This document shows positions 1-17,051 of a stretch of DNA of 41,595 nucleotides, piece by piece. The stretch is from Alphaproteobacteria bacterium 65-37 (lineage in GTDB: Bacteria > Pseudomonadota > Alphaproteobacteria > Reyranellales > Reyranellaceae). The stretch is from positions 1 to 41,595 of the forward strand of contig MKRV01000021.1 of assembly GCA_001897995.1 (NCBI GenBank). The letters run 5' to 3'. Position 1 is the first letter of the stretch; each line of letters starts with the position of its first letter. A program made the position numbers and the translations under genes. The notes beneath the pieces are model-generated. The model searched no databases. It was not told the origin of the DNA and worked only from the letters and a program-made list of their open reading frames with translations.

Positions 1-1550
1 GCCCCCGGCCCGTCGACGCGGAAGCTGGCACAGGCCGTCGTGCCGCCGACACCGGTCGTGGTCACGATCTCATAGGTGCCCCCGCGGGGCAGCCGCAGCG
101 GCGCCTCGAACCGGCCCGGCGCCGTCTCGGCAAGGCGACGGTCGAAGCGTGCGATCATCTTCGGCAGATCGCCGCGAATGGTCACCGCCGACATCGGCGC
201 ATCGCTCAGCCCGCCGCCCGCAGCGACGGCGAAGGCGACATTGGAGCCCGGGCGAACGGCGAGAACGCTGGCGGTCGACGGCGTCGCCACCAAGCGCCCG
301 GCATTCGGCGGTCCCGTCACCGGTCTGTCGGGCAGCGGCAGACGCACGCGCCGTTCGACGGGTGACGCTTCGGCGGCGAGCGGGGCGAGATCCACGACTG
401 TGACGGACGGCACCGACCTGTGTGTGAGGAACAGCGCGGCGCCCGCACCTGCCGCCTCGTGCACGATGTCGGGCACGGCCGGCGTTGCGACGACACGCGC
501 CCGCGCCAGATCGACCACGACAGCCTTCGGCACTGTGGTCGACCACGCGACGGCATAGCGGCCATCGTCGCGGACGAAAAGCCCGTCGGCCGCAAAGTCC
601 AGCGGCAGCGGCACAGTGCGGTCCGGATCGTCCTGCCAGCGGACGGTGAGGCCGCCCTCCGCCATTGCCGCAACGATCAATCCACCGCCCGCGGCAACGG
701 CCCCTGGAAAGCTGCCGGGAGCAAAGCGCTTCGCTGCCTTCTCCGCTGCACCGAGCAAGAGCGCCGAACCATCGGCCGCCACAGCGAGCAGCGTGTCGTC
801 CGCCGGCTTGGCCAATGTCCGCAGCGGCGATCCCATCACCGCTTGGGCACGAACCCTGCCCGCAGGATCCAGCTGCTGCAACCGGCCACCCTCGCGGCGG
901 TCCGCAACCACGAGATCGGCCCCCAGCGTCGCGAGAAGATGCGGCCGGTCGAATCCTTCGGCGACAGGCCGCAATCCCCCCCAGGGCAGGTCGACGGCGA
1001 CGATATCGTTTGCGCCGGCCCGCAACACGAAGGCACGTGGACTCGTCGGATGGACCAGCAGGGCGAGGATCGACCCGCCAAGCGGCGTCACGCTCAACTG
1101 GTTGGCGCTCTTCAGGCGATGGTCGAGATCGAGGACCCGCAGGCGGTCCTCCGTACCCGAAGTCGCCGTCGCATCCGCGCCGACGGCGATCAGGAACGAG
1201 CGTTCGAGCGCAATGTCGTCCGGCGCGATCGCGCCGGTCGCACGCACGATCCAGGCGGCATTGGTGCAGCTCGTGCTGCCCGGCGCGATGCGGCGCACCC
1301 AGGTTACCGGCTTGAGGCCGGTCGCGGGCTTGCCCTGCAATGCCTCGGTGAAGCTCAGCACGACCTTGAAGTCGACACCGGCCACGGCACGCTCCAGCGA
1401 CGCACCCGCGGCATCGACAATGCCGGCCTTGACGACGAGACCACTGCCGCCGCTCGCAAAGCCACCGCCCCCCTGCGCCAGGGCGACCAAGGGCATCGTT
1501 GCCATGGCCAGCAGGCCGCCGAAACCGGCTCGCCTCGCCGACCGGGTCAC
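1..1550 (-). CDS. Secreted beta-propeller-like protein, partial (runs off left edge)
   Basis: The minus-strand frame stays open from about 1562 to the window edge, giving at least 516 residues; the C-terminus is missing. From the GTG at 1550 the product begins MTRSARRAGFGG, followed by a hydrophobic stretch ending ALA-QG, which is a good export signal. A TTG at 1562 overlapping the oxidase stop (ATTGA) would add four residues, and the first ATG at 1504 would cut into the signal, so GTG or TTG is preferred. The body has repeated short units such as ADDTLLAVAADGSALLLG and ADLVVADRREGGRLQQLD, with about 40-residue periodicity, as in YVTN/NHL or cytochrome-d1-like propellers. No heme or metal motif is visible. 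It directly follows the giant multicopper oxidase and is probably translationally coupled to it, so it may be an exported partner. The propeller assignment is inferred from repeat character only. Confidence 0.7.
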   Translation of the reverse strand, partial: MTRSARRAGFGGLLAMATMPLVALAQGGGGFASGGSGLVVKAGIVDAAGASLERAVAGVDFKVVLSFTEALQGKPATGLKPVTWVRRIAPGSTSCTNAAWIVRATGAIAPDDIALERSFLIAVGADATATSGTEDRLRVLDLDHRLKSANQLSVTPLGGSILALLVHPTSPRAFVLRAGANDIVAVDLPWGGLRPVAEGFDRPHLLATLGADLVVADRREGGRLQQLDPAGRVRAQAVMGSPLRTLAKPADDTLLAVAADGSALLLGAAEKAAKRFAPGSFPGAVAAGGGLIVAAMAEGGLTVRWQDDPDRTVPLPLDFAADGLFVRDDGRYAVAWSTTVPKAVVVDLARARVVATPAVPDIVHEAAGAGAALFLTHRSVPSVTVVDLAPLAAEASPVERRVRLPLPDRPVTGPPNAGRLVATPSTASVLAVRPGSNVAFAVAAGGGLSDAPMSAVTIRGDLPKMIARFDRRLAETAPGRFEAPLRLPRGGTYEIVTTTGVGGTTACASFRVDGPG

Positions 1551-1558
1551 ACGTCGGA

Positions 1559-4500
1559 TCAATCGACTCCGGGCAGGCTGCATGCGCTCACGCTACCCGT
1601 TGCCGTGTTCCCGACGCTGAGATGCCCCCACACGCCCGCCGCGAAGATGGGCTGCGGTCCGTCGCGCCAAAGATAGTCGCCCGCCGTCCGCGGCGCACAG
1701 CCCCAGGCCGTCATCGCCTTGCCCGGCGCCAGCAAGGTCGTGTGACCCGAGCCGAAACCGGGGAAGAGATCGTCATAGCCGATCGTCGTCGCCACGAAGG
1801 CGCGCTGGCGTGCCCGGCCCTCGGGATGCGTGACCCGGATCGCAATCTCCTCACCAGGCTTCACGGCGAGTTGCGGCGTCGGCAGGGGTGCGGCGAAGAA
1901 GTTGGGCGGGAACACGACGGTGTTGAGATCGTCCTCGTCGCGCGGATAGGTGCGCAGGCCGAAATCTGCCGAGATGCCCGTACGGCCGGCCAGGCGCATC
2001 GTGAAGGGCGCCGAGCGATAGCTGACACCGCGCTCGCCGAGATCGTAGGAGTCGTCACAGACCCGGCAGTCGGGCACCGGGCGATCGGTGAAGCCGAGAT
2101 AGCTGTCGGTCGGATGCGGCCGGCGCCACTGGTTGAGCCCGTCCTGCCACATCAGCACGTGCTCGCGGAACGTGGCCGCGCCGATGGTCACAGGAGCCGC
2201 TCCGGGAACTTCGAGGTCCAGCTTGGGCGCGGGGACGGCCGCCGTGACGCTGTGGCGCCACGCAAAGGCCTCGGCCGGCGACGGCCCCACCGGGTTGTTG
2301 CCGGCATCGACCTCGGTCGGCTCGACCACCACGGTCCCGATCAGCCCCCGCGCACCATGCGAGACCACGTCGCCGATCGACCGGATCGGCAGAGCGCCGA
2401 AAGCATAGGGGATCACGCGTGTCACCGCCTTCCGCGCAGCGTCGCCGGCGAAGAAGGTGTCGAGCTGACGCTGCGCGATCTCCTGCAGTCGCCCACGGCT
2501 GGTGGCGGAAATCGCGATGGTGTTGTTGCCCGGGTCGCGGGCGTCGATGCAGAGCGCAACGCCATAGACCACGACCTGGCGCTCGAGCTCACAAGGCTTT
2601 TCCTGCAGGAGCTCGACTCCGAAGCGACCATTCGGGATCTGGCCCGCGATCTCCGTTTGCGCCGTCGGCAATCGCAGCGCCTCCAGAGCCTTGTCGCGCA
2701 CCACACCGTCGCCGACCCAGTAGAAGCCGGCATAGTAGCGGGTGACACCGAACACGCGGCCGCCGCTCCCTTCCGGCGAGATCGCGCGGGTATCGTTCAC
2801 GCCGACCGGCAAGGTGCCGGCGGGCTTCAGCGACACGCTGGGCAGCGGCACGGAGAGTGCCACCTTGCGCGACGGGTCGATCTCGTCGCGGAATTTCGCG
2901 CGCTCCTGCTTCCAGTCGCTGAAGCTCTTGACGCTGCCATATTGCCGTTCGTCGCTGTCGACATTCAGCGGCACGATCCGGGGCATCAGGGCATCGCCCG
3001 GCGTATCCCACGGCTCGCCGCTGCGCGGCAGGGCGTTGATCACCATCAGGTCGACGCAGTCACCCGCCCGTACCCGCAGCACGAACGGCGTACCGGTCGT
3101 GTCCCCGGCCTGCTTCAGCTTGTTGGCGACGATGGTCTGGATCTGCGGGATCGACTTCGGCAGCGGCGCGCCGGCCTGATAGGCCATCAACGGCCGGTCG
3201 AGGCCGAGATCGCTCCGCGTCAGGGGCACCAGCAACAACCCGTCGCGGCTGAACAGCCCGGCCTTCTCGTAGATCGTGCCCGGCAGCCACGTTGTCGACT
3301 TGTCCAGCGCCTTGCCGGACCGAATGGCGACGGCGATCGCCTCGACATGCGGTGCGCCGACAGGACAGGACTCCGCGAGCTTCGAGACCGAAGGTGGCAA
3401 GGCCTCGACGACGGCCGAGGTCGCGGGCATCGGCACCGCCGCGGAAGAGGCCCCGACTTTCCGGCGCAGATCCGCGAAGGAGGCAAGACGCTTGCCGATC
3501 GCCGTGGCGCCGCTGCCGGTCAGGCAGGCCTTGAAATCGGCCGCCGACGGGGCGGTGCCGAGGCAGGCGGCGAGATCCGGCGAGGTCGGCGCGTCGTAGC
3601 TGCGCAGCAGGCCCCAGGCGCCATTCCAGAGCGCGTCGGTCGATCCGAAATGATAGAGGTAATCGAGCGAGGGTCGGCCGCTTGCGGCATGGCGGCCGCT
3701 GCGCACGATCGGCCGCAATCCATCGTCACCTGGTTGTGCCACCGTCAGCCGCGGCGCCAGATAGGTGCCCCCGGCCGAGAACAGCGATCCCACCTCGAAA
3801 TGCTCGGAGATGCCGATCTCTTGCGCCGCGACGAAACCCAACGGGTTGTCGCAGCCCGCGACGAGCTCGGCGAAATCCTTCCAGTAAGGGGCACGAGGGC
3901 CGGTCAGGATTCCCTCGGTCGCCCATTGCGCGAACTCGCGCGGATTGCCTGAGCGCGCGAAGGCGTTGCTGGCACAGCGCGCGGCGCGCGACACGTCGGC
4001 CTCGGGCCGGTCGGCGCCGAGCGGCCGTTCGCTCGGGAAGGGCTGATCGACATTGCGCCGGCCGGGACGGCCTTCGACGACGAAGGTGTGCTGCACCTCC
4101 TGCGCGCCCTGGATCATGCGCACCACGACGCGATCGCCCGACAGGCCTTCGAGGATCGGGGTGCAGGGATCGCCGTGCAGCTCCGAACGGAAGACATCGG
4201 AGAGATCGCCCTTGTCGGTGAGCAGGCGCTGGCGGGAGATGCTCTCGCCGCTTTCGCTGTCGGCGAAGGCGCCGTCCTGCGGTCCGGGAACCCGGCAGGG
4301 ATTGGCGAGGAAGGACGGCGCACTGCCGTCCGACTTGGCGCCGACGCGCAAGGGAATCGGCTCGTTGCGGTAGTTCACCAGATAAGGATCGTGGTGGCGC
4401 TGCGAGATCGCCTCGGGCCGCGGCGGCGGGGCGATCGGATTGCCGTAGGCGGCACGGATATCGCCGCGCCGTTGCGTGAGCTTGCCCCTGTCGCCGTCCG

Positions 4501-7500
4501 ACAGCGCGATGTCCTGCAGGCGCAGGAATCGCGCCGGCGCGGTCTCGTCCGGTTCGTCTTCGGCGCTCGGCGTCGGCTCGGCGGCAGCAGCCTCGTAGAC
4601 CAGACGATCGAGGCCATTCGGATCGCCGTCGGTGGCCGGACCCACGCCCTTCTTGCCGTCGTACAGCAGGGCGAAATCCGCGATGGCGATGGCGTACTCG
4701 CGCGCATCGACATGGATCGGATCGCCGGCGACCGTACTGCCGGCGACAGGCGGGCGAGGCAGGAACACGTTCGCCCGCGCCCCTACGAGATCGCGCGCCG
4801 GCTCCTGCGCCAGCTTGTAGGGCCCCGTCGGCTGGTTCGACGCGGCCGGGCCGGTCGCGCAATTCTTGCCGTCATGCATCGCCGAGTTGGCCTCGGCCAG
4901 CGGACAGACGGCATGGGTCGAGGGCTCGATCAGCAACGCCGAATAGAAGCCGTGTTGCTGGATGTTCGAGGGGCCGAAATGGTCGTGCGTGAACACCGTG
5001 CGCATGGTGCGGTCGGCAACACCGGTGCCCGGGGTCGGGCCATCATCGGACAGGATCGGATCGGCGAACCAGCGCTGCACCGTCGTCTGGAAGTACTTGA
5101 TGTTGTCGCCCGACAAGCGCGGCAAGGTCGAGACCTTCTCGACGAAATCCTTGGCGCATTCCCCGTCCGAGCGGGTCGCTGCACTTTCCGCCACGACTTC
5201 ACCAGGTCGGTTGGTCACGGCGCCACCGACCGCCGCTCGCGATTTGCAGAGGCGCTCCAGCACCTCGTCGGATGCGAAGGTCCCGTCCTCATAATTGAAG
5301 CCATTGCCGCTGCCGTCCGAGGAAGTGACATCGAACTTCACGAGGTGGATATGCTGGCCGATCGTGTCGGTCGGCACCGAGAGCTGGAAGTCATCGAGCT
5401 TCAGCTTCTTCGGCGTCTCATTGGTGTGGTGGAACTCGATGCATTCCCCCGAGAAGGCGCGGAAGAAGAACGGCTCGGCGTCCGACCGCCACTTGTTCTT
5501 GTAGTTGCCGGCCTCGGTCGACAACACGTTGATGCGCGCCTGCGGGTCATGCCAGCCGGCGCGGTTGACGATCATCTTCAGCTCGACGACGGAAACATCG
5601 AAACGACGGAAGCCGATCAACGCCGGATCGGGCACGATGCTGTTGGCCGTCGTGAAGGGATCGATCTGGAACTTGAACGGCTCTGCCCCTTCCCAGGTGC
5701 TCTTGGCGGCATTGAATCGTCTGAGCTTCGGCCCGTTCTCGCGCGAGAAGACCAGCGGCGCCGAACAGGGATCGGCATAGGGAGAGCCGGCGGCACCCGG
5801 CGAGCCGTTGACGGCAAAGCGTGCATCGTCGGCGAGGGTCACGGCACCGGTCGCGCCCGAGCGGATCGTGTCGAGCGGGATCGACTTGACGGGATAGGCT
5901 GCGGTGTCGGGATCCAGTCGGGTCTTGAGCGGCGGCAAGGCCGGCGCCGACGGATCGCCGGCGAGCGTCACCGTCCGTTCCGCGGGCTCGCGGCCCGATG
6001 CATCGAACAGCTTGAGACCGCTGCCCGTGCCATGGAACGCCATGGCATTGCGTTCCAGCACAGTGCCGATCTGCGGCAGCAGTTCGAGCTTCAGGAACTC
6101 GAACTCCGACGTCACGTCGCCCAGCGCCAGCATGCGCGCCAAGACGCCCTTCTTGTCCTTGATCTTCTGCCGCTCCGCCGGCGGCAAGTCCTTCAGCACC
6201 GTGGGCACGGCCTCGCCGCCGACCACGACGTGACGCGGCAGACCGCCATCGAGATGGGCGCGTCCACCGAGAGCAGCGATCTGACTGTCGCCGATGCCGG
6301 CCGCCGCGTTCTTTTCGGCGCGTGCCATGTCGAGCGGCGGCTGCGGTGAGCGGCGCCCCGGCTTACCCGCGACATAGAACGGATAGCCCGGCATGGCGTC
6401 GGTCACGAGCGGCTGACCGTTGTTCACCGCCGTAACTGCGGCCGGCTCCGAGTAGGTCGGCAGCAACGGCAAGCCTTGGCCGGGCAACGGAATGAGACCG
6501 GGGACCGGCGTGCCTTGGTCCGACGCCTTGCCGCCGGGCGGAGCCAGCCATTCACCGGCTCGACCGACGCTGCCTTGCCTCACCTTCTCCTTGTCGGCAT
6601 TGGGCAGGACCGACAAGGCCGCGACAGACTGGCCGTCGGGCAGCAGGCGCGTGCCGTCTTCGAGCACGTCGTGGACCCGCCACAGGGCCCACATGCCCTG
6701 CGCAAAATGCGGGTAGAGGTGGCAGTGGAAGATGGCGTCGCCCGGCGTGCGGTTGCGATTGCCCGAGCCCAGCGAATCCCACCAGCCGCGCGGCGCGGCG
6801 GCACTGTTGCGATCGGCGGCGAAGCGTTCCAGTCCGCCGTGATAGATACGGTAGGTGAAACCCTGCTGCGGCCCGATGGTCTGGCTGTCGAGGTAGGCGC
6901 CACGCCCGGCATCGTTGCCGGCGAACCACTGATGGCTGTGCAGGTGGAAGACGTGCGTCTCCTTGCCGGCATGGAAATTCCGGAAGACGACCTTGTCGTT
7001 CAGATAAGAGTGATGGACGTTGGAGGGATCGTCCGGGAAGGCTTCGAGCAGCGCTGGATCGCCGTTGGCCCAGCTCTCGAGGAAAAACTCCTCGTAGAGG
7101 CACTCCGCGCAATTGGCCGCCGGGCCGATGCCTAGCCGGTTGGCAAGCATTGCCGAGCCGACGCCGCTTGCGCCGTAGTTGATGGCGAAGCCGTCGCGCA
7201 CGCCCGACAACTGGCCGAACATGCCGAGCTGCTTGAGATCCTCGGCATAGTAGGTCTTGAGCTCGTCGTGGAAGATCACCGTAAACTCGCGGAACGGCTG
7301 CTGCGCTTCGTGCGCTTGCCGCCATTCCCGCCGCAGATTCTCAGGGGTGTCTTCGTCGATCGTCTTGAGGTCGCCGGCCGGCGGGACAATGACGGCGTTG
7401 AGATCGCCATGGACGATCTCCTCGACGATCTTGCCGCCGCGCGTCGCGCAGGGCCGGCGCATCGACAGGATCGGGGTCGTGCCGGCACCGCCGCAGGCAA

Positions 7501-8575
7501 AGGCCTCGCCGTTGACCGGCTTCGACACCCGGCTCGCCGCCTCACTGTCCGGCACCGCGAGATTGAAATCGACGGCATCGGCCCGCGCGTGTTGGACCGC
7601 ACCCGAGCGGCTCGGCCAAACGCGCTCGAAGGCCGTACGGCTCACCTGGCTGCGGAAGGCGCGGCTGCCCGTCGCTTCGACAATCAGCGCCCCGAACAGA
7701 CCATGGCCCAGCGATCCTGCATCGCCCTCGCCACCAGCCGGCGCGGCCAGGCTGGAGAAGAGATGCGTGCCCTCGCGCAGCAGCTGCCAGCGGCAGGTGA
7801 CACTCTCACCGGGCTTGATCGCATCGAGGCCGGTGCAGGCCCCATGGATCTTCCCACCGTCAGCAGGAATGGGCTCCAGACCGGGAATGACCAGGGAGAG
7901 GCCGCGCGTCAACGGCCAGTCGGTGCCGGGCCGCGACCCTGCTTGTGCCTCCTGCGCAAGCTCTTCCGCCGTCTTGGCACATTGGATGTTGCCGAAGGCG
8001 GTACGGATATCAGGCCGCACCGGTGCGATGGCAACGCCATCGCCCGCCGCCTTTTCTTCGCAGAAGCCGATGCCGGGCTTTTGCGGGGGTGTCGCGAAGG
8101 CACTGCTGACGCCGGGCTGATCCGGGCGCAGGAGATTGGTCAGCGTGATCTCGAGGATGTCGCCGGCATTGGCTCGCAGCACCAACGGGCGCGGCCGCTT
8201 GCAGTCGCGCAGCCTCGCCTCGCCGGGTTCGAGCTTGCCCTCGCCAGCCTCGGCACCCGTCAGCGCAGCGCAGAGATCGGCCGAAGGACGCTCCGAGATC
8301 TGCGACATCGACGTCACGTCGCGCCGTAGCGCGAAGATCATGCCGAAAGGATTGAAGGACCCGAAACGGTTGTAGACCAGAAGATGATCGAGAGCGACGA
8401 TGTCGGCATGCACGATCCGCTGCGTCTCGGCCTGCGCCGGTGGCGCCGTGAGGCTACCGGCCAGTGCCAGTATCCCACCAGCCAGTCCGGCCAGGGAGGC
8501 CCGCACGGCCCGCCGCTTCTTCCGATCACCGACCTCATAAAAAAGCTTGAGGGGCAACGTCCAAATCGGTGTCAT
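1559..8575 (-). CDS. Giant exported multicopper oxidase (2338 aa), Mn-oxidase-like, permuted copper sites
   Basis: The N-terminus has a basic region (RKKRR, residues 19-22) and a hydrophobic core ending PAQA-E near residue 49, a long but plausible export signal. All copper ligands of a multicopper oxidase are present: H541-xx-H544-x-H546-x-H548, then H617-C618-H619-xxx-H623-xxxx-M628 (type 1 ligands H541, C618, H623, M628), then H1075-x-H1077 in the segment IGQHIH, and H1197-x-H1199 in THDHFGPSN. The last two pairs normally precede the Cys-containing motifs; here they follow, so the halves are permuted. Residues about 1250-2338 carry more cupredoxin-like stretches (HGARGLIG, YHFGSTDALWNGAWG, FPGFGSGHTT) without a second copper cluster. 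At 2338 aa it is several times longer than laccase or CueO and nearer the large oxidases linked to Mn(II) oxidation. The substrate is not readable; Mn(II) or another metal or phenol is inference. The start is the only ATG before the signal, with AAGGG about 9 nt upstream. Confidence 0.9.
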   Translation of the reverse strand: MTPIWTLPLKLFYEVGDRKKRRAVRASLAGLAGGILALAGSLTAPPAQAETQRIVHADIVALDHLLVYNRFGSFNPFGMIFALRRDVTSMSQISERPSADLCAALTGAEAGEGKLEPGEARLRDCKRPRPLVLRANAGDILEITLTNLLRPDQPGVSSAFATPPQKPGIGFCEEKAAGDGVAIAPVRPDIRTAFGNIQCAKTAEELAQEAQAGSRPGTDWPLTRGLSLVIPGLEPIPADGGKIHGACTGLDAIKPGESVTCRWQLLREGTHLFSSLAAPAGGEGDAGSLGHGLFGALIVEATGSRAFRSQVSRTAFERVWPSRSGAVQHARADAVDFNLAVPDSEAASRVSKPVNGEAFACGGAGTTPILSMRRPCATRGGKIVEEIVHGDLNAVIVPPAGDLKTIDEDTPENLRREWRQAHEAQQPFREFTVIFHDELKTYYAEDLKQLGMFGQLSGVRDGFAINYGASGVGSAMLANRLGIGPAANCAECLYEEFFLESWANGDPALLEAFPDDPSNVHHSYLNDKVVFRNFHAGKETHVFHLHSHQWFAGNDAGRGAYLDSQTIGPQQGFTYRIYHGGLERFAADRNSAAAPRGWWDSLGSGNRNRTPGDAIFHCHLYPHFAQGMWALWRVHDVLEDGTRLLPDGQSVAALSVLPNADKEKVRQGSVGRAGEWLAPPGGKASDQGTPVPGLIPLPGQGLPLLPTYSEPAAVTAVNNGQPLVTDAMPGYPFYVAGKPGRRSPQPPLDMARAEKNAAAGIGDSQIAALGGRAHLDGGLPRHVVVGGEAVPTVLKDLPPAERQKIKDKKGVLARMLALGDVTSEFEFLKLELLPQIGTVLERNAMAFHGTGSGLKLFDASGREPAERTVTLAGDPSAPALPPLKTRLDPDTAAYPVKSIPLDTIRSGATGAVTLADDARFAVNGSPGAAGSPYADPCSAPLVFSRENGPKLRRFNAAKSTWEGAEPFKFQIDPFTTANSIVPDPALIGFRRFDVSVVELKMIVNRAGWHDPQARINVLSTEAGNYKNKWRSDAEPFFFRAFSGECIEFHHTNETPKKLKLDDFQLSVPTDTIGQHIHLVKFDVTSSDGSGNGFNYEDGTFASDEVLERLCKSRAAVGGAVTNRPGEVVAESAATRSDGECAKDFVEKVSTLPRLSGDNIKYFQTTVQRWFADPILSDDGPTPGTGVADRTMRTVFTHDHFGPSNIQQHGFYSALLIEPSTHAVCPLAEANSAMHDGKNCATGPAASNQPTGPYKLAQEPARDLVGARANVFLPRPPVAGSTVAGDPIHVDAREYAIAIADFALLYDGKKGVGPATDGDPNGLDRLVYEAAAAEPTPSAEDEPDETAPARFLRLQDIALSDGDRGKLTQRRGDIRAAYGNPIAPPPRPEAISQRHHDPYLVNYRNEPIPLRVGAKSDGSAPSFLANPCRVPGPQDGAFADSESGESISRQRLLTDKGDLSDVFRSELHGDPCTPILEGLSGDRVVVRMIQGAQEVQHTFVVEGRPGRRNVDQPFPSERPLGADRPEADVSRAARCASNAFARSGNPREFAQWATEGILTGPRAPYWKDFAELVAGCDNPLGFVAAQEIGISEHFEVGSLFSAGGTYLAPRLTVAQPGDDGLRPIVRSGRHAASGRPSLDYLYHFGSTDALWNGAWGLLRSYDAPTSPDLAACLGTAPSAADFKACLTGSGATAIGKRLASFADLRRKVGASSAAVPMPATSAVVEALPPSVSKLAESCPVGAPHVEAIAVAIRSGKALDKSTTWLPGTIYEKAGLFSRDGLLLVPLTRSDLGLDRPLMAYQAGAPLPKSIPQIQTIVANKLKQAGDTTGTPFVLRVRAGDCVDLMVINALPRSGEPWDTPGDALMPRIVPLNVDSDERQYGSVKSFSDWKQERAKFRDEIDPSRKVALSVPLPSVSLKPAGTLPVGVNDTRAISPEGSGGRVFGVTRYYAGFYWVGDGVVRDKALEALRLPTAQTEIAGQIPNGRFGVELLQEKPCELERQVVVYGVALCIDARDPGNNTIAISATSRGRLQEIAQRQLDTFFAGDAARKAVTRVIPYAFGALPIRSIGDVVSHGARGLIGTVVVEPTEVDAGNNPVGPSPAEAFAWRHSVTAAVPAPKLDLEVPGAAPVTIGAATFREHVLMWQDGLNQWRRPHPTDSYLGFTDRPVPDCRVCDDSYDLGERGVSYRSAPFTMRLAGRTGISADFGLRTYPRDEDDLNTVVFPPNFFAAPLPTPQLAVKPGEEIAIRVTHPEGRARQRAFVATTIGYDDLFPGFGSGHTTLLAPGKAMTAWGCAPRTAGDYLWRDGPQPIFAAGVWGHLSVGNTATGSVSACSLPGVD

Positions 8576-8789
8576 GCCGGCCGACCCTTGCTGAGGAAAG
8601 CGACTGCACAGAAGCTGCGAGCGAGGACACTAACGCTATCCCGCCCCTGCGACAAGTTGACGACAGCACAGGTCGGGTCGAGAAATTGCGAGAGGCCGAT
8701 TTCCTGTGGTGCTCGCGGCGGTTGAGAGGATTCTTTGCACCGGTTTTCAAAGTCTTTGACTGGATCCGATCGGACGGAGGAGCGTCGAC

Positions 8790-10622
8790 ATGGCACTCAT
8801 CGCGGAGGGGCGTTACGAAGGGCGGCTCGCGGAAAATGACCGGACCGTCACGCTGCGTGTTTCGCGACGCGAGGGCGGACGTCTCGATAATCTGAGCGGC
8901 GATGTCTTTTCGACGACGGCGCATATCCTGTCGTTCGCGGGAGACCTCGCTTCGCTCGCCGAAGTCACCGACGCCGATGTTTCCGGACGCATCTCGGGAC
9001 GCGTTTCCTTTTTCTCCGAAGGCGCGCTCGCGCGCACGGGCAGTCGCTTCACTCTCGTACTGTCAGACGAAACCGATGACTCGGCCGTCGGGCTCACCCT
9101 GAATCTCGGCGCCGGTGATGTCACCGTCGCCCTCTCCCGTACTGGACCCGAATTGCGATCGCTCAGGGTCGATGTCGACGGCCTCGACAGCCTCCCCACG
9201 CCGCAGGCCCGCATCTTCGAGGGCGATCCCGCCGGAAAGGATCTCGTCTCCGCCCTGAAGCGTGCATCGATCGCCGCGACGGTGAATGTCCGACCGTTCC
9301 AGCCCTACGCCGCTGGGGCGTCCACCCCGGAAAGACTGTCCATGGGCGAGCTGCACAGCCTGATGGACGCATGGAGCAGGCCACCGACCGACATCGGCCA
9401 GGCCTGGCGGGTGCATGTCCTGTTCGCCGGCCAGTACAGCGGGCGCGGTGAAGCCGATGTCAGTGGCGTGATGTACGACGTCGAGCCACACCGGCGGCCA
9501 TCGCGGCAGGGCCTCGCCGTCTTCCTGAACAGCACAGCCATCAAGGCGTGTACCCCGGTCAATGGCGACAACTGGCGGCGCGAGGTGCTGTTCACCCTGG
9601 TGCACGAGATCGGCCATGCCCTGAACCTGCCGCACGCCTTCGAGGACAACCGCGCCCAGTCGTTGACCTGGATGAATTATCCTCGCGATATGCCGATCGG
9701 CGCGGCCGCCTTCTGGAACAGCTTCGGGGAAAGCTTCGATACGCCAGAGCTCGCTTTCCTCCACCACGCGCCGTTCTCGGATATCGCGCCAGGCCAGAAC
9801 GATTATGCCCAGCGCCGCAGCTCGTTCCTGTCCGGTGGCAGCAACCCGATGCTCAAGGCGAAGAAGACAACGCCCACGATCGATCCCACGACTGTGAAAG
9901 CAACCCTTGCCGTCGCGCCGTTGAAGGCCACCTATGTGTTCGGCGAGCCGGTCTTCCTGAAACTCGCTGTAACCAACGAGAGCCGAAGGAAGCTGTCGCT
10001 CGCCAAGGCGCTCGATCCCAGCGACGGTTTCGTCTCCATCCGCATCGAAACGCCCTTGGGCAAGCAGCGCACGCTCAGGCCGCCAGCGGCGCTCTGCCAG
10101 CGTGCGCCCAGCATGACGCTCGCCCCTCGCAAGAGCGTCGCCTTCGACGGCATCCTGGCCTCGTTCGATGCCGACGGCGCGATCTTCGACACGCCGGGTC
10201 GCTACCGCCTGCAGGCGACCTTCAAAGGCATCGACGGCGTCACTCTGACTTCACAGCCTTCCTTTTTGCGCGTGCTCCATCCGACGCGCGCCGAGGAGCT
10301 GGTCGCGATCTCGATCTGGGACGACAATGCGTTGATGCGCGCGATCTATTGCCGCCAGCCGCTCGTTGCCCTCGACTCCTGGCAACGGCTGGTCGAGGAG
10401 AAGCTTCGCCTCCTGCCCGACGACGGTGCCAATACCACCAAGTCCTATCTTCGCTATGTCGCCGCGCTAGGATGGATGGAGCGCTTTGCACCGGCCGCAC
10501 GAGCCGCCGCTTACAGACCCAATCGTCGCAAGGCCCTGGCCCATTTGCGCACCGTCGAGCCTCGGGACCTTCCACAGGGCGTGAGTCGACGCTGCGGCGA
10601 ACTGCTGACGAAGAAGCGGTGA
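8790..10622 (+). CDS. Predicted metzincin-type zinc metallopeptidase (610 aa)
   Basis: The zinc motif HExxHxxxxxH is at H272-E273-H276-H282 (HEIGHALNLPH). A methionine follows 13 residues later in the segment LTWMNYP (M295), in the right place for a metzincin Met-turn, although the spacing is short. The first 250 residues form an unrecognised domain. Residues about 365-500 look like an immunoglobulin-type beta domain (TYVFGEPVFLKLAVTNES, then GRYRLQATFKG), and the last 100 are helical and basic. No signal peptide or membrane segment is visible, so either it is cytoplasmic or it leaves by a signal-less route; no glycine-rich RTX repeats are seen. GGAGGAG lies 7 nt before the ATG, a very strong ribosome site. 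It is transcribed away from the multicopper oxidase, sharing a 214-bp gap. The peptidase call rests on the motif and context; no family is certain. Confidence 0.75.
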   Translation: MALIAEGRYEGRLAENDRTVTLRVSRREGGRLDNLSGDVFSTTAHILSFAGDLASLAEVTDADVSGRISGRVSFFSEGALARTGSRFTLVLSDETDDSAVGLTLNLGAGDVTVALSRTGPELRSLRVDVDGLDSLPTPQARIFEGDPAGKDLVSALKRASIAATVNVRPFQPYAAGASTPERLSMGELHSLMDAWSRPPTDIGQAWRVHVLFAGQYSGRGEADVSGVMYDVEPHRRPSRQGLAVFLNSTAIKACTPVNGDNWRREVLFTLVHEIGHALNLPHAFEDNRAQSLTWMNYPRDMPIGAAAFWNSFGESFDTPELAFLHHAPFSDIAPGQNDYAQRRSSFLSGGSNPMLKAKKTTPTIDPTTVKATLAVAPLKATYVFGEPVFLKLAVTNESRRKLSLAKALDPSDGFVSIRIETPLGKQRTLRPPAALCQRAPSMTLAPRKSVAFDGILASFDADGAIFDTPGRYRLQATFKGIDGVTLTSQPSFLRVLHPTRAEELVAISIWDDNALMRAIYCRQPLVALDSWQRLVEEKLRLLPDDGANTTKSYLRYVAALGWMERFAPAARAAAYRPNRRKALAHLRTVEPRDLPQGVSRRCGELLTKKR

Positions 10623-10629
10623 GCAGCCG

Positions 10630-11046
10630 CTACTTCGGAATCACCGCCATGGCCTGGATTTCGATTTTGGCGCGGTCCTCGATCAGGGCGGCGACCTCGA
10701 CAGCGGCCATGGCCGGGAAGTGGCGGCCCATGATCTCGCGGTAGACCTGGCCGATCTCCCGCAGCCTGGCGAGGTAGTCCTTCTTGTCGAGGAGATACCA
10801 GGTCATCGACACGACGTGTTCAGGCCGCGCGCCCGCTTCAGTCAGCACGGCTATGACGTTCTGCAGAGTCTGGCGTACCTGGCCCACGAGATCGTCGGTC
10901 TCGAAACGACATTGGCCGTTCCAGCCGATCTGGCCGCCGACGAACACCAGCCGGCCCTCGGCCGCGATGCCGTTGGCGTATCCCTTGGGCGTGGCCCAGC
11001 CGGCCGGCTGCAGGATGGTGTGCGGGCTCACGATCGGCTCGCTCAT
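10630..11046 (-). CDS. RidA/YjgF-family protein lacking the catalytic arginine
   Basis: The product is 138 aa, the normal length for the Rid family, with the characteristic N-terminal region (YANGIAAEGRLVFVGGQIGW) and the C-terminal VEV...KIEIQAMAV strand. In RidA proper the conserved PARS segment supplies the arginine that binds the imine/enamine carboxylate; here residues 111-114 read PAMA, with Met113 at that place. Family knowledge therefore argues against the usual imine deaminase activity and places it among the arginine-less Rid subgroups. The ATG overlaps the stop of the CoA ligase (ATGA), so it is the last gene of the anthranilate-type operon. The pathway passes through an amino-substituted dearomatised CoA ester (an enamine), so a role in tautomerising or deaminating that intermediate is an attractive but unproven idea. 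Confidence 0.88.
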   Translation of the reverse strand: MSEPIVSPHTILQPAGWATPKGYANGIAAEGRLVFVGGQIGWNGQCRFETDDLVGQVRQTLQNVIAVLTEAGARPEHVVSMTWYLLDKKDYLARLREIGQVYREIMGRHFPAMAAVEVAALIEDRAKIEIQAMAVIPK

Positions 11047-12689
11047 GAGGAGGCCTCCTGCCTGAGGAGAAAGCGCTGGATCTTGCCGGTCGGCGTCTTG
11101 GGCAGTGCGGCCACGAACTTCACCGAGCGCGGATACTTGTAGGGCGCGATGGTCGCCTTGACGTGGTCCTGCAGGCGTCTGGTCGTCGCCGCATCGGGTT
11201 CGACACCGTCCATCAGCACGACATGCGCCTGCACGATCTGCCCGCGCTCCGTATCGGGGACACCGATCACGGCGCATTCGCGCACCTCGTCGTGCGCGAG
11301 CAACGCCGCCTCGACCTCCGGGCCGGCGATGTTGTAGCCGGCCGAGATGATCATGTCGTCCGAACGCGCCACGAAGTGGAACCGACCGGCAGCATCCTGC
11401 AGGAAGGCATCGCCGGTGAGGTTCCAGCCCTCCCGCACGTAGGCACGCTGGCGGTCGTCGGCGAGGTAGCGGCAGCCGGTGGGGCCGCGCACCGCCAGCC
11501 GGCCGGCGGTGCCTCGCGGCAGCTCGTTCATCTCCTCGTCGACGATGCGCGCTTCGTAGCCGATTACCGGTCGCCCGGTCGTGGCCGGCGCGAAATCGTC
11601 CAGATGATTGGAGATGAAGATATGCAGCATTTCCGTCGCGCCGATGCCGTCGAGGATCGGCCGGCCGGTCTCGCGCATCCACTCCTCGAACACCGGCGCC
11701 GGCAGGGTCTCGCCGGCCGAGACGGCGATGCGCAAGGAGGAAAGGTCGGCGCCCTTCTGCTTGGCCACCAGCATGGCGCGATAGGCCGTGGGCGCCGCGA
11801 AGGCGACCGTGGCGCGGTAGGTCTCTATGATGCCGATCATGTTGGCCGGCGAGGCGTCCTCCAGGAGGGTCGCGGCCGCGCCGAAACGCAGCGGAAAGAC
11901 GGCGAGCCCACCCAGACCGAAGGTGAAGGCAAGCGGCGGCGAGCCCACGAACACATCGTCCGGCACGACGCCCAATACCTCGCGCGCATAGCCGTCGGCG
12001 ATGATCATCAGGTCGCGGTGGAAATGCATGGTGGCCTTCGGGACACCGGTCGTGCCCGAGGTGAAGCCGAGCAGGGCCACGTCGTCGCGGCCGGTGTTCA
12101 CGGCCGCGAAGCGCACATCCTTGTTCAGCGCAATACGGTCGAGCTCGGCATCGTGGTTGGCCGTGCCGTCGAAGCCCACGACCTGGCGCAGGAACCTGCT
12201 GTCCTTGGCGCAGGCCACCAATTCGTCCATCAACCGCGTGTCGCAGAGCGCCAAGGCGATCTCGGCCTTGTCGACGATCTTGGCAAGCTCGCCCGCCCGC
12301 AGCATCGGCATGGTGTTGACGACCACGGCCCCGGCCTTGGTCGCGGCCAGCCAGCAGGCGACCATGGCCGGATTGTTGGCCGATCGGATGAGCACGCGGT
12401 TGCCGGGCTTGACCCCGTAATCCTCGACCAGCGCATGGGCCAGCCGATTGGTCCAGTCGGAGAGTTCCTTGTAGGTGCGCCGCCGTCCGTTGCCGATCAG
12501 CGCCGTATGATCGCCGAAGCCTTTCGCGACCATACGGTCGGTGAGTTCGACGCCGATATTGAGCCGATCGGGATAGTCATAGCCGTCGAGGCGAAACTCC
12601 GGCCATTGGTCGGTCGGCGGAAGATGATCGCGGGCGAAGGTGTCGGTGTGCGCACTGGGTCCCAGTGCAGACATGGCCAATCCAGACAT
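11043..12689 (-). CDS. Aryl-CoA ligase, probably 2-aminobenzoate(anthranilate)-CoA ligase
   Basis: This is a 548-residue member of the AMP-forming acyl/aryl-CoA ligases. The nucleotide loop LLGFTSGTTGVPKATMHFH, the ATEM-type motif (DGIGATEMLHIF) and the C-terminal catalytic lysine segment PKTPTGKIQRFLL are all present. Overall character resembles benzoate- and 2-aminobenzoate-CoA ligases rather than long-chain ligases. The reaction would be aromatic acid + ATP + CoA to aryl-CoA + AMP + PPi in the cytosol. The start chosen (MSGLAMSALGP) is 4 bp downstream of the crotonase stop, with GGGAG about 10 nt before it; the frame is open further upstream but that part overlaps the crotonase gene. Anthranilate as substrate is inferred from the fused monooxygenase/reductase in the same operon; benzoate or salicylate remain possible. 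Confidence 0.88.
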   Translation of the reverse strand: MSGLAMSALGPSAHTDTFARDHLPPTDQWPEFRLDGYDYPDRLNIGVELTDRMVAKGFGDHTALIGNGRRRTYKELSDWTNRLAHALVEDYGVKPGNRVLIRSANNPAMVACWLAATKAGAVVVNTMPMLRAGELAKIVDKAEIALALCDTRLMDELVACAKDSRFLRQVVGFDGTANHDAELDRIALNKDVRFAAVNTGRDDVALLGFTSGTTGVPKATMHFHRDLMIIADGYAREVLGVVPDDVFVGSPPLAFTFGLGGLAVFPLRFGAAATLLEDASPANMIGIIETYRATVAFAAPTAYRAMLVAKQKGADLSSLRIAVSAGETLPAPVFEEWMRETGRPILDGIGATEMLHIFISNHLDDFAPATTGRPVIGYEARIVDEEMNELPRGTAGRLAVRGPTGCRYLADDRQRAYVREGWNLTGDAFLQDAAGRFHFVARSDDMIISAGYNIAGPEVEAALLAHDEVRECAVIGVPDTERGQIVQAHVVLMDGVEPDAATTRRLQDHVKATIAPYKYPRSVKFVAALPKTPTGKIQRFLLRQEASS

Positions 12690-12693
12690 GGCG

Positions 12694-13506
12694 TCAGGCT
12701 CCCTGGAAGACGGGCTTCTCCTTGGCGACGAAGGCGCGGTAGGCGCGCTCGAAATCGCGCGTCTGCATGCAGATCGCCTGGGCCTGCGCTTCCGCCTCGA
12801 TCGCCTGCTCGAGCCCCATCGCCCATTCCTGGTTGAGCTGGGTCTTGGTGATGCCGTGAGCGAAGGTCGGCCCCGCGGCGATGCGCTGCGCCAGATCGAG
12901 TGCCGCGGCTTCCAGCGCATCGGCTTCGACCAGACGATTGTAGAAGCCCCAGCGCTCGCCTTCGGCCGCCGACATCGCCCGGCCGGTATAGAGCAGTTCG
13001 GCGGCACGGCCCTGGCCGATCAGGCGCGGCAGCATCGCACAGGCCCCCATGTCGCAGCCGGCCAGCCCGACGCGGCTGAACAGGAAGGCGGTCTTCGCCT
13101 CGGGAGTGGCCAGGCGGATATCCGACGCCATGACGATGATGGCGCCGGCCCCCACGGCCACGCCGTCGACGGCGGCGATGATCGGTTTGCCGCAGCCCAG
13201 CATCGCCTTCACGAGATCGCCCGTCATGCGCGTGAAAGCCAGGAGCTCCTTCATGTCCATGCCGACCAGCGGCCCGATGATGTCATGCACATCGCCGCCG
13301 GAGCAGAAGTTTCCGCCATTGGGCAGGAACACGACGGCGTCGATATCGTCGGCATCGCGCAGGGCGCGGAAGGTGTCGCGCAGCTCGGCATACGAGGCGA
13401 AGGTGAGCGGGTTCTTGCGCTCCGGCCGGTCGAGCTGCAGGCGCGCGACCCTGTCATCAACCTGCCAGAGGAAGTGCTTGGGCTTGAGTCCGGCCAGACG
13501 ATTCAT
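12694..13506 (-). CDS. Enoyl-CoA hydratase/isomerase (crotonase) family protein
   Basis: The product is 270 aa, typical for crotonases. The two oxyanion-hole segments are visible: FCSGGDV at 67-73 and [10 protein letters not shown] at about 115-124. The place where true enoyl-CoA hydratases carry the first catalytic glutamate reads [10 protein letters not shown] (149-158), with Asp152 as the only acidic residue, so hydration of a simple enoyl-CoA is uncertain and a ring-hydrolysing or isomerising role is possible. It lies between MarR (4-bp ATGA overlap) and the aryl-CoA ligase (4-bp gap), so it probably acts on the non-aromatic CoA ester made by the monooxygenase/reductase. Substrate and exact reaction are inferred from operon position. 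Confidence 0.87.
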
Positions 13507-13994
13507 GAGCGCGCCTCCGCTTTGCGGTCTTCCCAGTTGCTCTGAAACGATTTCAGGATGGCAGCGAGGTGCTGCGCGTCGCTCGCCGACACGTCGCCCA
13601 GCAGCTCTCCGATCCAGCCTTCGTGGACCTCGGCCATGGTGCGAAAGAAGTCGCGGCCGGTTTCCGTGAGCCGCACGATCGAGGTGCGACGGTCGCCGTT
13701 GCGCCGGGCGCGCTGCACCAGCCCGTCCGCCACCAGCCGGTCGACGATACCCGTGACATTGCCGTTGGAAACCAGCAGGAAGCGCGACAGGTCGCTCATC
13801 AGCATGCCTTCGGGCACGCGATAGAGCGCCGCCAGCACGTCGAAACGCGGCAGGGTCGTGTCGAATTCGACCCTGAGCCGCTCACGCAGCTCGGCCTCGA
13901 TGGCGCGCGAGGCGCGCAGCAGGCGGATCCAGAGACGCAATCTTTCCTTGTCGGCCTTGGACGTCGGCGTGGCTCGCTGCGATGCCGTCACCAT
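13503..13994 (-). CDS. MarR-family transcriptional regulator
   Basis: A 163-aa winged-helix protein with the MarR layout: N-terminal dimerisation helix ([20 protein letters not shown]), recognition region [22 protein letters not shown], the wing [17 protein letters not shown], then long C-terminal helices. MarR proteins of this kind sit in aromatic-acid operons and usually release DNA on binding the aryl-CoA intermediate. The gene is third in the operon, overlapping the SDR stop by 7 bp and the crotonase start by 4 bp, so its own level follows that of the operon it probably represses. The 26-bp palindrome at 17109-17134 is the obvious candidate operator. The ligand is unknown. Confidence 0.93.
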
Positions 13995-14746
13995 GTCTCG
14001 CCTCCGGAGATCGAGAGTGCCTGGCCGGTGACCGAGCGGGCGGCATCACTGCACAGCCACAGGACGGCGGCCGCGACCTCCTGCGGCTGGATGAAGCGAT
14101 GCTGCGGATTGGTCGCGGCCAGGCTGGCGCGCGCCTCGTCGGCGCTGCGGCCGGTCGTCTCGACGATGCGCTGAACGGACTGCACCAGCATCTCGGTCTC
14201 GACGAAACCGGGACACACTGCGTTGACGGTCACGCCCGACTTCACCGTCTCGACCGCCAACGCCCGCATCAGGCCGACGACGCCGTGCTTGGCCGCCACA
14301 TAGGGCGCGACATAGGCGTAGCCCTTGAGCCCCGCCGTCGAGGCGACAAAGACGATGCGGCCGGCCTTGCGCCGGGTCATGCCGGCAAGGGCCGGCTTCA
14401 CGGTGAGGAAGGCGCCGGTCAGATTGAGGTCGAGCGTGCGTTGCCAGTCGACCAGCGACGTGCGGTGCGCCGGGCCGCTTTCCGCTCCGCCGGCATTGGC
14501 GATCACGATGTCGAGCGGCCCGCGCGCCGCCTCCGCTTCGGCATGAAGGCGCACCATCGCCGCCTCGTCGGTGACGTCGGCCACGAGGGCCGCGATACGC
14601 GTGTGCTCACCGGCGGCTTGCGCCAATGGCGCTTCGCGACGACCGCAGATCGTGACGGAGGCGCCCGCCTCGGCCAGCGCCAACGCAATCGCCCGGCCCA
14701 CGCCGGTGCCCCCGCCCGTGACCAGGGCATGGCGTCCTTCGATCAT
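13988..14746 (-). CDS. Short-chain dehydrogenase/reductase (3-hydroxyacyl-CoA dehydrogenase-like)
   Basis: A classical SDR of 252 aa. The cofactor motif TGGGTGVG is at residues 10-17, NAGG at 84-87, Asn108 in the LDLNLTG strand, and the catalytic Ser136, Tyr149 and Lys153 (Y-V-A-A-K) are all present. In this operon it most likely oxidises a hydroxylated alicyclic CoA ester as NAD(P)-dependent dehydrogenase, the third step of a beta-oxidation-like ring degradation. It starts 13 bp after the stop of the monooxygenase/reductase and overlaps MarR by 7 bp. The substrate is inferred from the neighbours; SDR sequences alone do not show it. Confidence 0.92.
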   Translation of the reverse strand: MIEGRHALVTGGGTGVGRAIALALAEAGASVTICGRREAPLAQAAGEHTRIAALVADVTDEAAMVRLHAEAEAARGPLDIVIANAGGAESGPAHRTSLVDWQRTLDLNLTGAFLTVKPALAGMTRRKAGRIVFVASTAGLKGYAYVAPYVAAKHGVVGLMRALAVETVKSGVTVNAVCPGFVETEMLVQSVQRIVETTGRSADEARASLAATNPQHRFIQPQEVAAAVLWLCSDAARSVTGQALSISGGETW

Positions 14747-14759
14747 GTCCGGCTCCCGG

Positions 14760-17051
14760 TCATACGCGGAGGCTTCCGACGGCGCTGCGCTCGCTCAGGC
14801 GATAAAGCTGGTCCCGACCGGCGAGATAGGGGTCGGGCCATTTGACGTCGCGGTCACCCAGGGCAGCGGCGGCATGCAGCGTCCAATAGGGATCGGCGAG
14901 ATGCGGCCGGGCGAGGCACACCAGGTCGGCGCGGCCGGCCAACAGGATCGAGTTCACGTGATCGGGCTCGTAGATGTTGCCGACCGCCATGGTCGCCATG
15001 CCGGTTTCGTTGCGGATGCGGTCGGAGAACGGCGTCTGGAACATGCGGCCATAGACCGGCCGGGCGCGGATCGAGGTCTGACCAGCAGAGACATCGCAGA
15101 CGTCGACACCGGCCGCCTGAAAGCGACGGGCAATCTCGACCGCCTCACCCGGCGTCACCCCCTCGCCCTCGACCCAGTCGCAGGCCGAGAAGCGCACCGA
15201 GATCGGCTTCTCCGCCGGCCAGACACCCCGCACCGCCTGGAACACTTCCAGCGGATAGCGCAGGCGGTTTTCCAGGCTGCCGCCATAGTCGTCGGTGCGA
15301 TGGTTGGTGAGCGGCGTGATGAAGGACGAGAGCAGGTAGCCGTGTGCGGCATGGATCTCGAGCATGTCGAAGCCGGCACGCGCCGCCCGCTCTGCCGCCG
15401 CCACGAACTCATCGCGCACCCGCGCCATGTCGGCCGGGTCCATGGGTTTCGGAACTTGGTTCACCGACGACCAGGGTGCTGCGGACGCCGCCATGACAGG
15501 CCAGTTGCCGTTGGCCAGAGGGGCATCCATCTGCTGCCAGCCGAGCTGGGTCGAGCCTTTCGGTCCCGAATGGCCGATCTGGGCGCAGATCTTCGCCTCG
15601 GTCTCGCGATGCACGAACTCGACCAGCCGCTTCCAGGCGACCTCGTGTTCGGACGCATAGAGACCGGTGCAGCCCGGCGTGATGCGGCCCTCGGGCGACA
15701 CGCAGGTCATCTCGATGGTGACAAGGCCAGCGCCACCCTTGGCGCGCTCGGCATAGTGAGCGAAGTGCCAGTCGGTCGGGCAGCCCTCGACCGCCTTGTA
15801 TTGCGCCATCGGCGAGACGACCACGCGGTTCTGCAGTTGGAGATCGCGCAGACGGAAGGGCGCGAACATCGGCGCCCGCCGCAGGTTGCCGCTGCTGCCG
15901 GCACGGCGCTGGAACCAGGCCTCGGCCTCGCCCAGCCAGGCCGGGTCGCGCAGTCGCAGGTTCTCGTGGCTGATGCGCTGCGAGCGGGTCAGCAGCGAAT
16001 AGTTGAGCTGCACCGGGTCGAGGCCGAGATAGCGCTCGACTTCCTCGAACCATTCCAGCGAGTTGCGCGCCGCCGACTGCAGCTTGAGCACCTCCAGCCG
16101 CCGCGCATCCTCGTACTTGTCGAAAGCCGCAGCGAGCCCAGGCTCGCTGTGAAGATAGTCGGCCAGCGCCACGGCGCTTTCGAGCGCGAGCTTGGTGCCC
16201 GAGCCGATGGAGAAGTGTGCGCTCGCCGCCGCATCGCCCAGCAGGGCGAGGTTCTCGTGCGACCAGCGCCGGCAGAGCACGCGCGGAAAGTTGATCCAGG
16301 CCGAGCCGCGCAGATGGCCGGCGTTCGACATCAAGCTGTGTCCGCCGAGATGGCGGGCGAAAATCCGCTCGCAGGCCGCGATCGATTCCTCGCGCGACAT
16401 CTCATCAAAGCCTGCCTTGCGCCAGGTCTCCTCGCTGCATTCGACGATGAAAGTCGCGGTCTCGGGCTCGAACTGGTAGGCGTGCGCCCATACCCAGCCG
16501 TGCGGCGTCTCCTCGAAGATGAAGGTGAAGGCGTCGTCGAACTTCTGCCGCGTGCCGAGCCACACGAACTTGCATTTGCGCAGGTCGATGTCGGGCTGGA
16601 AGGCGGCGGCGAAGGCCGTTCGCGACCTGGAGTTCAGCCCGTCGGCCGCGACCACCAGGTCGTGGGTCGCCATGTAGGGCTTGGGATCGTCGATTTCGGT
16701 CTCGAAGGCCAGCTCGACGCCCAGTTCGCGGGCACGGCGCTGCAGGAGGAGCAGCAGGCGCTTGCGGCCGATGCCGCAGAAACCATGGCCGGTCGACAAG
16801 GTGCGCTGCCCGCGGTGGATCACCGCGATATCGTCCCAATAGGCGAAGTGCTCGCGAATCCATCCGGCGCTCTCGGGATCGTTGGCCGCGAGATTGTCCA
16901 GCGTCTCGGCCGAGAGCACGACTCCCCAGCCGAACGTGTCGTCCGCCCGGTTGCGCTCGAACACGGTGACCTCGTGTGCCGGGTCACGGCGCTTCATGGA
17001 AATCGCGAAGTAGAGGCCGGCGGGACCGGCACCCAGGACAGCTACTTTCAT
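14760..17051 (-). CDS. 2-aminobenzoyl-CoA (or salicylyl-CoA) monooxygenase/reductase fusion
   Basis: A 763-aa two-domain flavoprotein. Residues 1 to about 380 form a UbiH-type FAD monooxygenase with GAGPAG at 7-12, the DG-type segment [12 protein letters not shown] and the second FAD motif [15 protein letters not shown]. From about residue 395 ([20 protein letters not shown]) it is an Old Yellow Enzyme-type FMN reductase, with the active-site HAAHGYLL and the late FMN-binding [12 protein letters not shown]. This fusion is the hallmark of 2-aminobenzoyl-CoA monooxygenase/reductase, described in Azoarcus evansii: it hydroxylates and then reduces the ring, giving a dearomatised amino-oxo-cyclohexene carboxyl-CoA. 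Automated annotation often calls it salicylyl-CoA 5-hydroxylase. It is the first operon gene, with GGAGGG about 8 nt before the ATG. Choice between the two substrates is inference; the aryl-CoA ligase fits both. Confidence 0.92.

Follow-up and report, generated by a model that had tools for sequence, protein, structure and literature searches.

A divergent MnxG-like giant multicopper oxidase and its gene neighbourhood in Alphaproteobacteria bacterium 65-37

Multicopper oxidases take single electrons from their substrate through a type 1 copper and reduce O2 at a trinuclear copper cluster. In every bacterial six-domain member analysed in 2013, domains 2 and 3 together house the trinuclear site and domain 2 also the mononuclear one, according to the accessible part of PMC3600357, which gives lengths of 1217-1227 amino acids (aa) for Bacillus MnxG, 1944 for PputGB1_2447 of Pseudomonas putida GB-1 and 1886 for the Nitrosomonas europaea protein, as well as for giant alphaproteobacterial members in Methylobacterium populi (2493 aa) and Roseovarius TM1035 (2681 aa). 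Excerpts of two further papers describe Bacillus MnxG as needing MnxE and MnxF (PMC5622069), and the P. putida mnxG operon as holding propeller, SCO and cytochrome c/ABC-binding-protein genes (PMC11409713). Here we describe the gene for a giant multicopper oxidase in a 41,595-nucleotide stretch of Alphaproteobacteria bacterium 65-37 (the window; contig MKRV01000021.1, positions 1 to 41,595 of the forward strand), together with its neighbours and relatives. The oxidase is a divergent new member of the known MnxG manganese oxidase family and not a new design. It is likely to be a secreted six-domain enzyme of the MnxG kind, acting most likely on Mn(II), encoded by the first gene of an operon in which most of the relatives examined also have propeller-like, SCO and cytochrome genes. 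Its gene and the motifs located by script search and by alignment of relatives are as follows:

1559..8575, minus strand: giant six-domain MnxG-like multicopper oxidase, 2338 aa, N-terminal signal peptide probable (by eye)
6932..6955, minus strand: HVFHLHSH, residues 541-548, with ligands H541, H544 and H546
6692..6727, minus strand: HCHLYPHFAQGM, residues 617-628, with ligands H617, C618, H619, H623 and M628
5345..5353, minus strand: HIH, residues 1075-1077, both His as ligands
4979..4987, minus strand: HDH, residues 1197-1199, both His as ligands

The oxidase frame opens with ATG at 8575 and runs through 2338 codons of the minus strand with zero internal stops, and the gene is present as one intact copy in the source assembly. 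The twelve copper ligands that a first-pass annotation, which named no strand, had placed in these four motifs were all recovered. It had offered HxxHxHxH as a ligand motif, and its position is exact; the fourth His, H548, is also conserved but is no textbook ligand and does not belong to the twelve. Following the usual scheme of multicopper oxidases, we take H541, C618, H623 and M628 to bind the type 1 copper and H544, H546, H617, H619, H1075, H1077, H1197 and H1199 to form the trinuclear site. H623 aligns with residue 340 of MnxG entry 9bxa (Bacillus sp. PL-12) in the Protein Data Bank (PDB), the title of which names H340A. The Cys-bearing half lies N-terminal to the HxH/HxH half, with a spacing of 447 residues from M628 to H1075, matching the separation of about 450 within a 2338-residue chain that had been noted before.

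A scan of genome contigs yielded 591 pattern-matched stretches, 576 of which encode a relative; the locus counts given here rest on the best 80 of these 576. In an alignment of 89 relatives, made up of the 80 genome loci (including one identical pair), 8 proteins from plasmids and 1 further genome protein, the expected residue occupies each ligand column in 87 to 89 rows, the remainder being gaps. Because every covering row has the same residue, the twelve-ligand pattern is not a product of chance. Outside these 89, a distant relative from Rubrobacter marinus (locus L119) has Phe in the M628 column.

Kinship to Mn-oxidising MnxG, in line with the resemblance to Mn(II)-associated oxidases that the first pass had noted, is borne out by a profile match, a PDB match and an alignment. 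Nothing in Pfam exceeded its cut-off for the oxidase protein, while the NCBIfam model for MnxG, NF041487, gave 511.1 bits, below its curated equivalog cut-off of 3100. With the same model, four relatives scored 522 to 832 bits and MnxG of Priestia megaterium 333 bits, and in a scan of 398 genomes of the phylum 3 matched, host included, with zero above the cut-off. The PDB sequence search retrieved 9bxa at 1.3e-59, and this entry ranked first in the PDB for the sequence and, in Foldseek, for each half of the chain, with a profile match as well. The Cys-bearing motifs of 9bxa fall within residues 180-377, ahead of its two HxH motifs within 441-554 and 565-597, an order identical to that of the oxidase, and eight of twelve local segments shared by the two proteins are collinear. 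The Priestia plasmid protein (WP_252288389.1) matches 9bxa over nearly its full length (1705 bits), has its motifs at H280, H333, H528 and H574, and agrees with the oxidase in all 12 ligand columns. Global alignment, which imposes order, paired 1112 residues of the two proteins with 34% identity. Whether the two copper-ligand halves meet, a check that the first pass had called for, is addressed only indirectly: a single alignment fits the predicted model onto MnxG residues 1-606. The ligand order and the homology along the whole chain thus both place the protein in the broad family of MnxG-like six-domain oxidases. Given the shared ligand columns, the paired residues and the mostly collinear 9bxa matches, the 2338 residues are best read as an MnxG chain with insertions, and the about 1100 residues beyond Bacillus MnxG would be such insertions rather than added domains. 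The possibility that the long C-terminal region holds additional catalytic domains was considered and rejected, since profile and Foldseek match 9bxa there. Outside the copper ligands, a CxxCxxEE motif (C489, C492, E495 and E496; 7088-7111, minus strand) is also conserved, Priestia MnxG included: 83 of 85 rows retain its Cys columns (the other two have a gap and an Ala) and 84 of 85 its Glu columns.

All four motifs occur with the Cys-bearing half first in 75 of the 80 genome loci, the other 5 being cut by the contig end. The first-pass suggestion that Bacillus MnxG departs from the usual order proved right for both 9bxa and Priestia MnxG. The idea that the reversed order is new was rejected, as MnxG has the same order, published in 2013 in the part of PMC3600357 cited above; in itself, the order settles nothing new. 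Order, fold and operon are already known for the MnxG family. The suggestion of a new or little-studied branch holds in its second half: of 72,556 plasmid records 29 match, 12 of these cover at least 80% of the query, and those 12 name the protein 'hypothetical protein' (11) or leave it unannotated (one).

The operon was assessed mainly in the relatives, since the contig ends inside the first downstream gene and any partners beyond base 1 lie off the contig. That gene is:

3..1583, minus strand: P0002, 527 residues, truncated where the contig ends; 25 bases are shared with the oxidase frame

P0002 shows 55% identity to the 612-aa product of the gene following the Nitrobacter winogradskyi oxidase, across residues 8-516 of that product. 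It gave zero significant matches in Pfam or NCBIfam, and it is called propeller-like solely from its operon place, by reference to the P. putida operon table in the excerpt of PMC11409713. Partner homologues were sought by BLAST at E 1e-4, so divergent genes were possibly missed. At least 4.5 kb of downstream sequence is available for 58 of the 80 loci, and 43 of these 58 carry same-strand homologues of all three kinds, propeller-like, SCO and cytochrome c; leaving out the duplicate locus gives 42 of 57. The incomplete loci lack all three partners (9), the propeller-like gene only (4), or SCO and cytochrome (2). In a Pfam check of relatives' partners, both SCO examples (2 of 2) matched SCO1/SenC, 3 of 4 cytochrome examples passed the cytochrome c cut-off, and the propeller-like protein had no match.

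In the mechanism that we propose, domains 2 and 3 would form the working oxidase and the remaining domains a scaffold. The type 1 copper (H541, C618, H623, M628) would sit in domain 2, and the trinuclear site would be shared equally between that domain (H544, H546, H617, H619) and domain 3 (H1075, H1077, H1197, H1199). A metal ion, most likely Mn(II), would give up its electrons one at a time to the type 1 copper, from which they would pass to the trinuclear site; there O2 would be reduced to water, and Mn(III/IV) oxide would form outside the cell. The signal peptide seen by eye would direct export, and the SCO chaperone probably loads the copper.

Several findings weigh against this reading. 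The NF041487 score is far below the curated MnxG cut-off, four of the twelve local 9bxa matches break the order (which repeated domains would be expected to cause), the 34% identity comes from an alignment that imposes order, and the tree branch leading to Priestia is very long. Whole-model Foldseek fits to 9bxa are loose, with template modelling (TM) scores of 0.38 and 0.41 at root-mean-square deviations of 8.5 and 9.1, and 9bxa is not among the 50 matches listed by VIA-align for the C-terminal model, led by ceruloplasmin, factors V/VIII and copper nitrite reductases. P0002 matches no propeller family, and with the contig ending inside the second gene, no SCO or cytochrome gene can be seen next to the oxidase; a search of the assembly gave no second propeller-like copy and a sole SCO-like match, 32% identical and on another contig, the cytochrome not having been searched for. 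Nine of 58 loci are without all three partners, and for the oxidase's branch no substrate-tested relative was found. Mn(II) is, on our reading, the likeliest candidate substrate.

It is rather unlikely that the same fold and copper centre serve a natural substrate other than Mn(II), be it another metal ion (Fe(II), Cu(I)) or an organic molecule, and oxidise metal only as a side activity. The distance from the MnxG equivalog and kinship within a branch lacking a substrate-tested member speak for this alternative, as does the inclusion of algal multicopper ferroxidases among six-domain relatives with the domain 2-3 site (PMC3600357, in part), and four Nitrosomonas copies, three Nitrospira copies and that of Meiothermus lack the operon partners; it is countered by the 43 of 58 loci whose layout has the same kinds of genes as the mnxG operon of P. 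putida and by acidic and His residues beyond the copper ligands that are common to Priestia MnxG (H436, D437, E438, E495, E496, H535 and E539; role not assigned). Retention of a degenerate, inactive relative as a scaffold protein is very improbable: copper sites beyond domains 2-3 are described as lost in prokaryotic six-domain proteins (same source, in part), but the twelve ligands persist in every covering row, the frame is intact and the end branch of the oxidase is short (0.089 vs a median of 0.18). We give practically no credence to an ordinary three-domain laccase or CueO with its halves swapped by a recent rearrangement. The protein does have a weak Cu-oxidase_2 match at 529-634, the only Pfam Cu-oxidase match (E 0.0018), which stays under the gathering cut-off (18.5 vs 20.4 bits); its order is opposite to that of the three-domain enzymes and recurs in the 75 relatives, in Priestia MnxG and in 9bxa, with which the chain is collinear. 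Since the motif order is shared across the family, this last alternative is refuted.

Immediately upstream of the oxidase, 17 of the 80 loci (Nitrosomonas, Nitrospira, Meiothermus, Methylomonas and others) have a further gene of about 210-280 aa, for example L047 9225-9881, L076 8086-8721, L079 9418-10047, L084 1163-1798 and L099 9049-9894, which gave no Pfam match in two examples. It is present in the seven Nitrosomonas and Nitrospira loci and in Meiothermus in which the usual downstream partners are absent, and occurs together with these partners in N. mobilis (L063).

The tree comprised 86 rows after 6 of 92 were dropped (five cut by contig ends, one duplicate), with support from the Shimodaira-Hasegawa-like approximate likelihood ratio test only; P. 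putida MnxG, McoA and MofA were left out. In looking for a Pseudomonas MnxG for the tree, the OprF model matched 12 of 143 class-sample genomes, none named as Pseudomonas, and NF041487 matched 0 of 1 in the genus of the top genome (G811). The oxidase pairs, at support 100, with that of Nitrobacter winogradskyi, to which it is 86% identical in 848 core columns, and Methylobacterium and then Aurantimonadaceae join next in a seven-row sub-clade (support 98). The host itself is the only one of 75 genomes of its family (65 of its genus) to carry the oxidase, and in its class 2 of 289 genomes do, host included. This scattered occurrence across the tree and the host's family and class suggests horizontal gain, and the host probably acquired the gene in this way; a foreign base composition was not seen, the third-position GC content of the oxidase being 0.83 vs 0.79-0.90 in 14 neighbours. 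In Jiella avicenniae, the oxidase loci on two contigs (L074 and L080) are identical over all 27,977 bases compared, which reflects either a recent duplication or an assembly artefact.

The most distinctive feature of the locus is the divergent zincin-like gene beside the oxidase, which begins after 214 bp upstream of the oxidase start:

8790..10622, plus strand: divergent gene, 610 aa, with HEIGHALNLPHAF (zincin-like; Pfam Zincin_1 at E 0.036 only)

Of the 80 genome loci, 74 have at least 1 kb of upstream sequence, and 6 carry a homologue next to the oxidase and divergent from it; among 11 other loci, L009 alone does. The loci concerned (L009, L034, L035, L036, L037, L061 and L096) account, with the present locus, for every row of the seven-row sub-clade, plus L096, a fragment not used for the tree; none was found elsewhere among the loci searched. 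This divergent zincin-like partner of the sub-clade was not seen described among the papers listed by the literature searches, none of which was aimed at it. In Rhodobacterales and Shinella relatives, a trypsin-like peptidase occupies the same divergent place (L010 5866-8742, L011 6140-8671, L012 7694-8602 and L014 6113-8716, the last with a weak papain-like match too), and 13 of the 80 loci have a trypsin-like homologue encoded oppositely to the oxidase and no more than 1.5 kb from its start. A sigma-54 promoter before the oxidase was rejected, as consensus matches in the window occur at chance level (20 vs 19.6 expected) and none falls in 8576-8789. Beyond the zincin-like gene, a catabolic-looking cluster (10630-17051, minus strand) encodes a RidA-like protein, an AMP-binding ligase, an enoyl-CoA hydratase, a MarR regulator, a short-chain dehydrogenase and a 763-aa FAD-binding/Oxidored_FMN fusion; conceivably, it may serve an aromatic acyl-CoA.

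More speculatively, the locus may belong to a mobile alphaproteobacterial metal-oxidation island spread across unrelated hosts (the present host, the nitrite oxidiser Nitrobacter winogradskyi, Methylobacterium and Aurantimonadaceae), in which a giant MnxG would pass electrons to a cytochrome c transcribed along with it and would be processed or released by a protease of its own, the product of the divergent gene, different lineages having recruited unrelated zincin-, trypsin- or papain-like peptidases to one place; we consider this scenario decidedly doubtful. The branch is large (the 576 relative-encoding stretches stem from one scan), mostly unnamed in the matching plasmid records, and reaches nitrifiers (Nitrosomonas, Nitrospira and Nitrobacter winogradskyi), and it therefore offers sequence-defined strains for gene-removal tests of Mn oxidation and of the linked cytochrome. 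Among the papers listed by the literature searches, no test of an alphaproteobacterial member of the branch was found. The available parts of four papers mention Nitrospira metagenome-assembled genomes with MnxG (PMC12070406), three isolate genomes without a gene annotated mnxG (PMC4861733), and mnxG or mcoA as search genes only (PMC10732223 and PMC9224936).

Among the known systems, MofA of Leptothrix discophora, compared by description only, is likewise a putative Mn oxidase from an operon with a cytochrome c gene, mofC (excerpts of PMC5566968 and PMC8218464), whereas mofB is described there as a peptidyl-prolyl isomerase, unlike in the oxidase operon. P. putida GB-1 MnxG (PputGB1_2447; NF041487), compared through profile and description and not by sequence, is also a giant, and its operon has the gene kinds seen in the relatives of the oxidase, which itself reaches 511 of the 3100 bits; in contrast to that operon, relatives L011-L015 have no annotated second SCO or SurA gene and the oxidase locus has its divergent zincin-like neighbour. 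In Bacillus, the small mnxE and mnxF genes lie directly upstream of mnxG. The Priestia locus displays two small upstream genes annotated as hypothetical, and none of this kind lies directly upstream of the oxidase at its locus, the rest of the genome not having been searched. The six-domain set in the available part of PMC3600357 has the same site placement as the oxidase, and apart from the absence of the 2338-aa protein from its list no difference was found. Bacillus MnxG (9bxa; Priestia WP_252288389.1) differs in length (1227-1228 vs 2338 aa), with about 34% identity to the Priestia protein, and shares with the oxidase the ligand order, collinearity over its length and, in Priestia, all 12 ligand columns.
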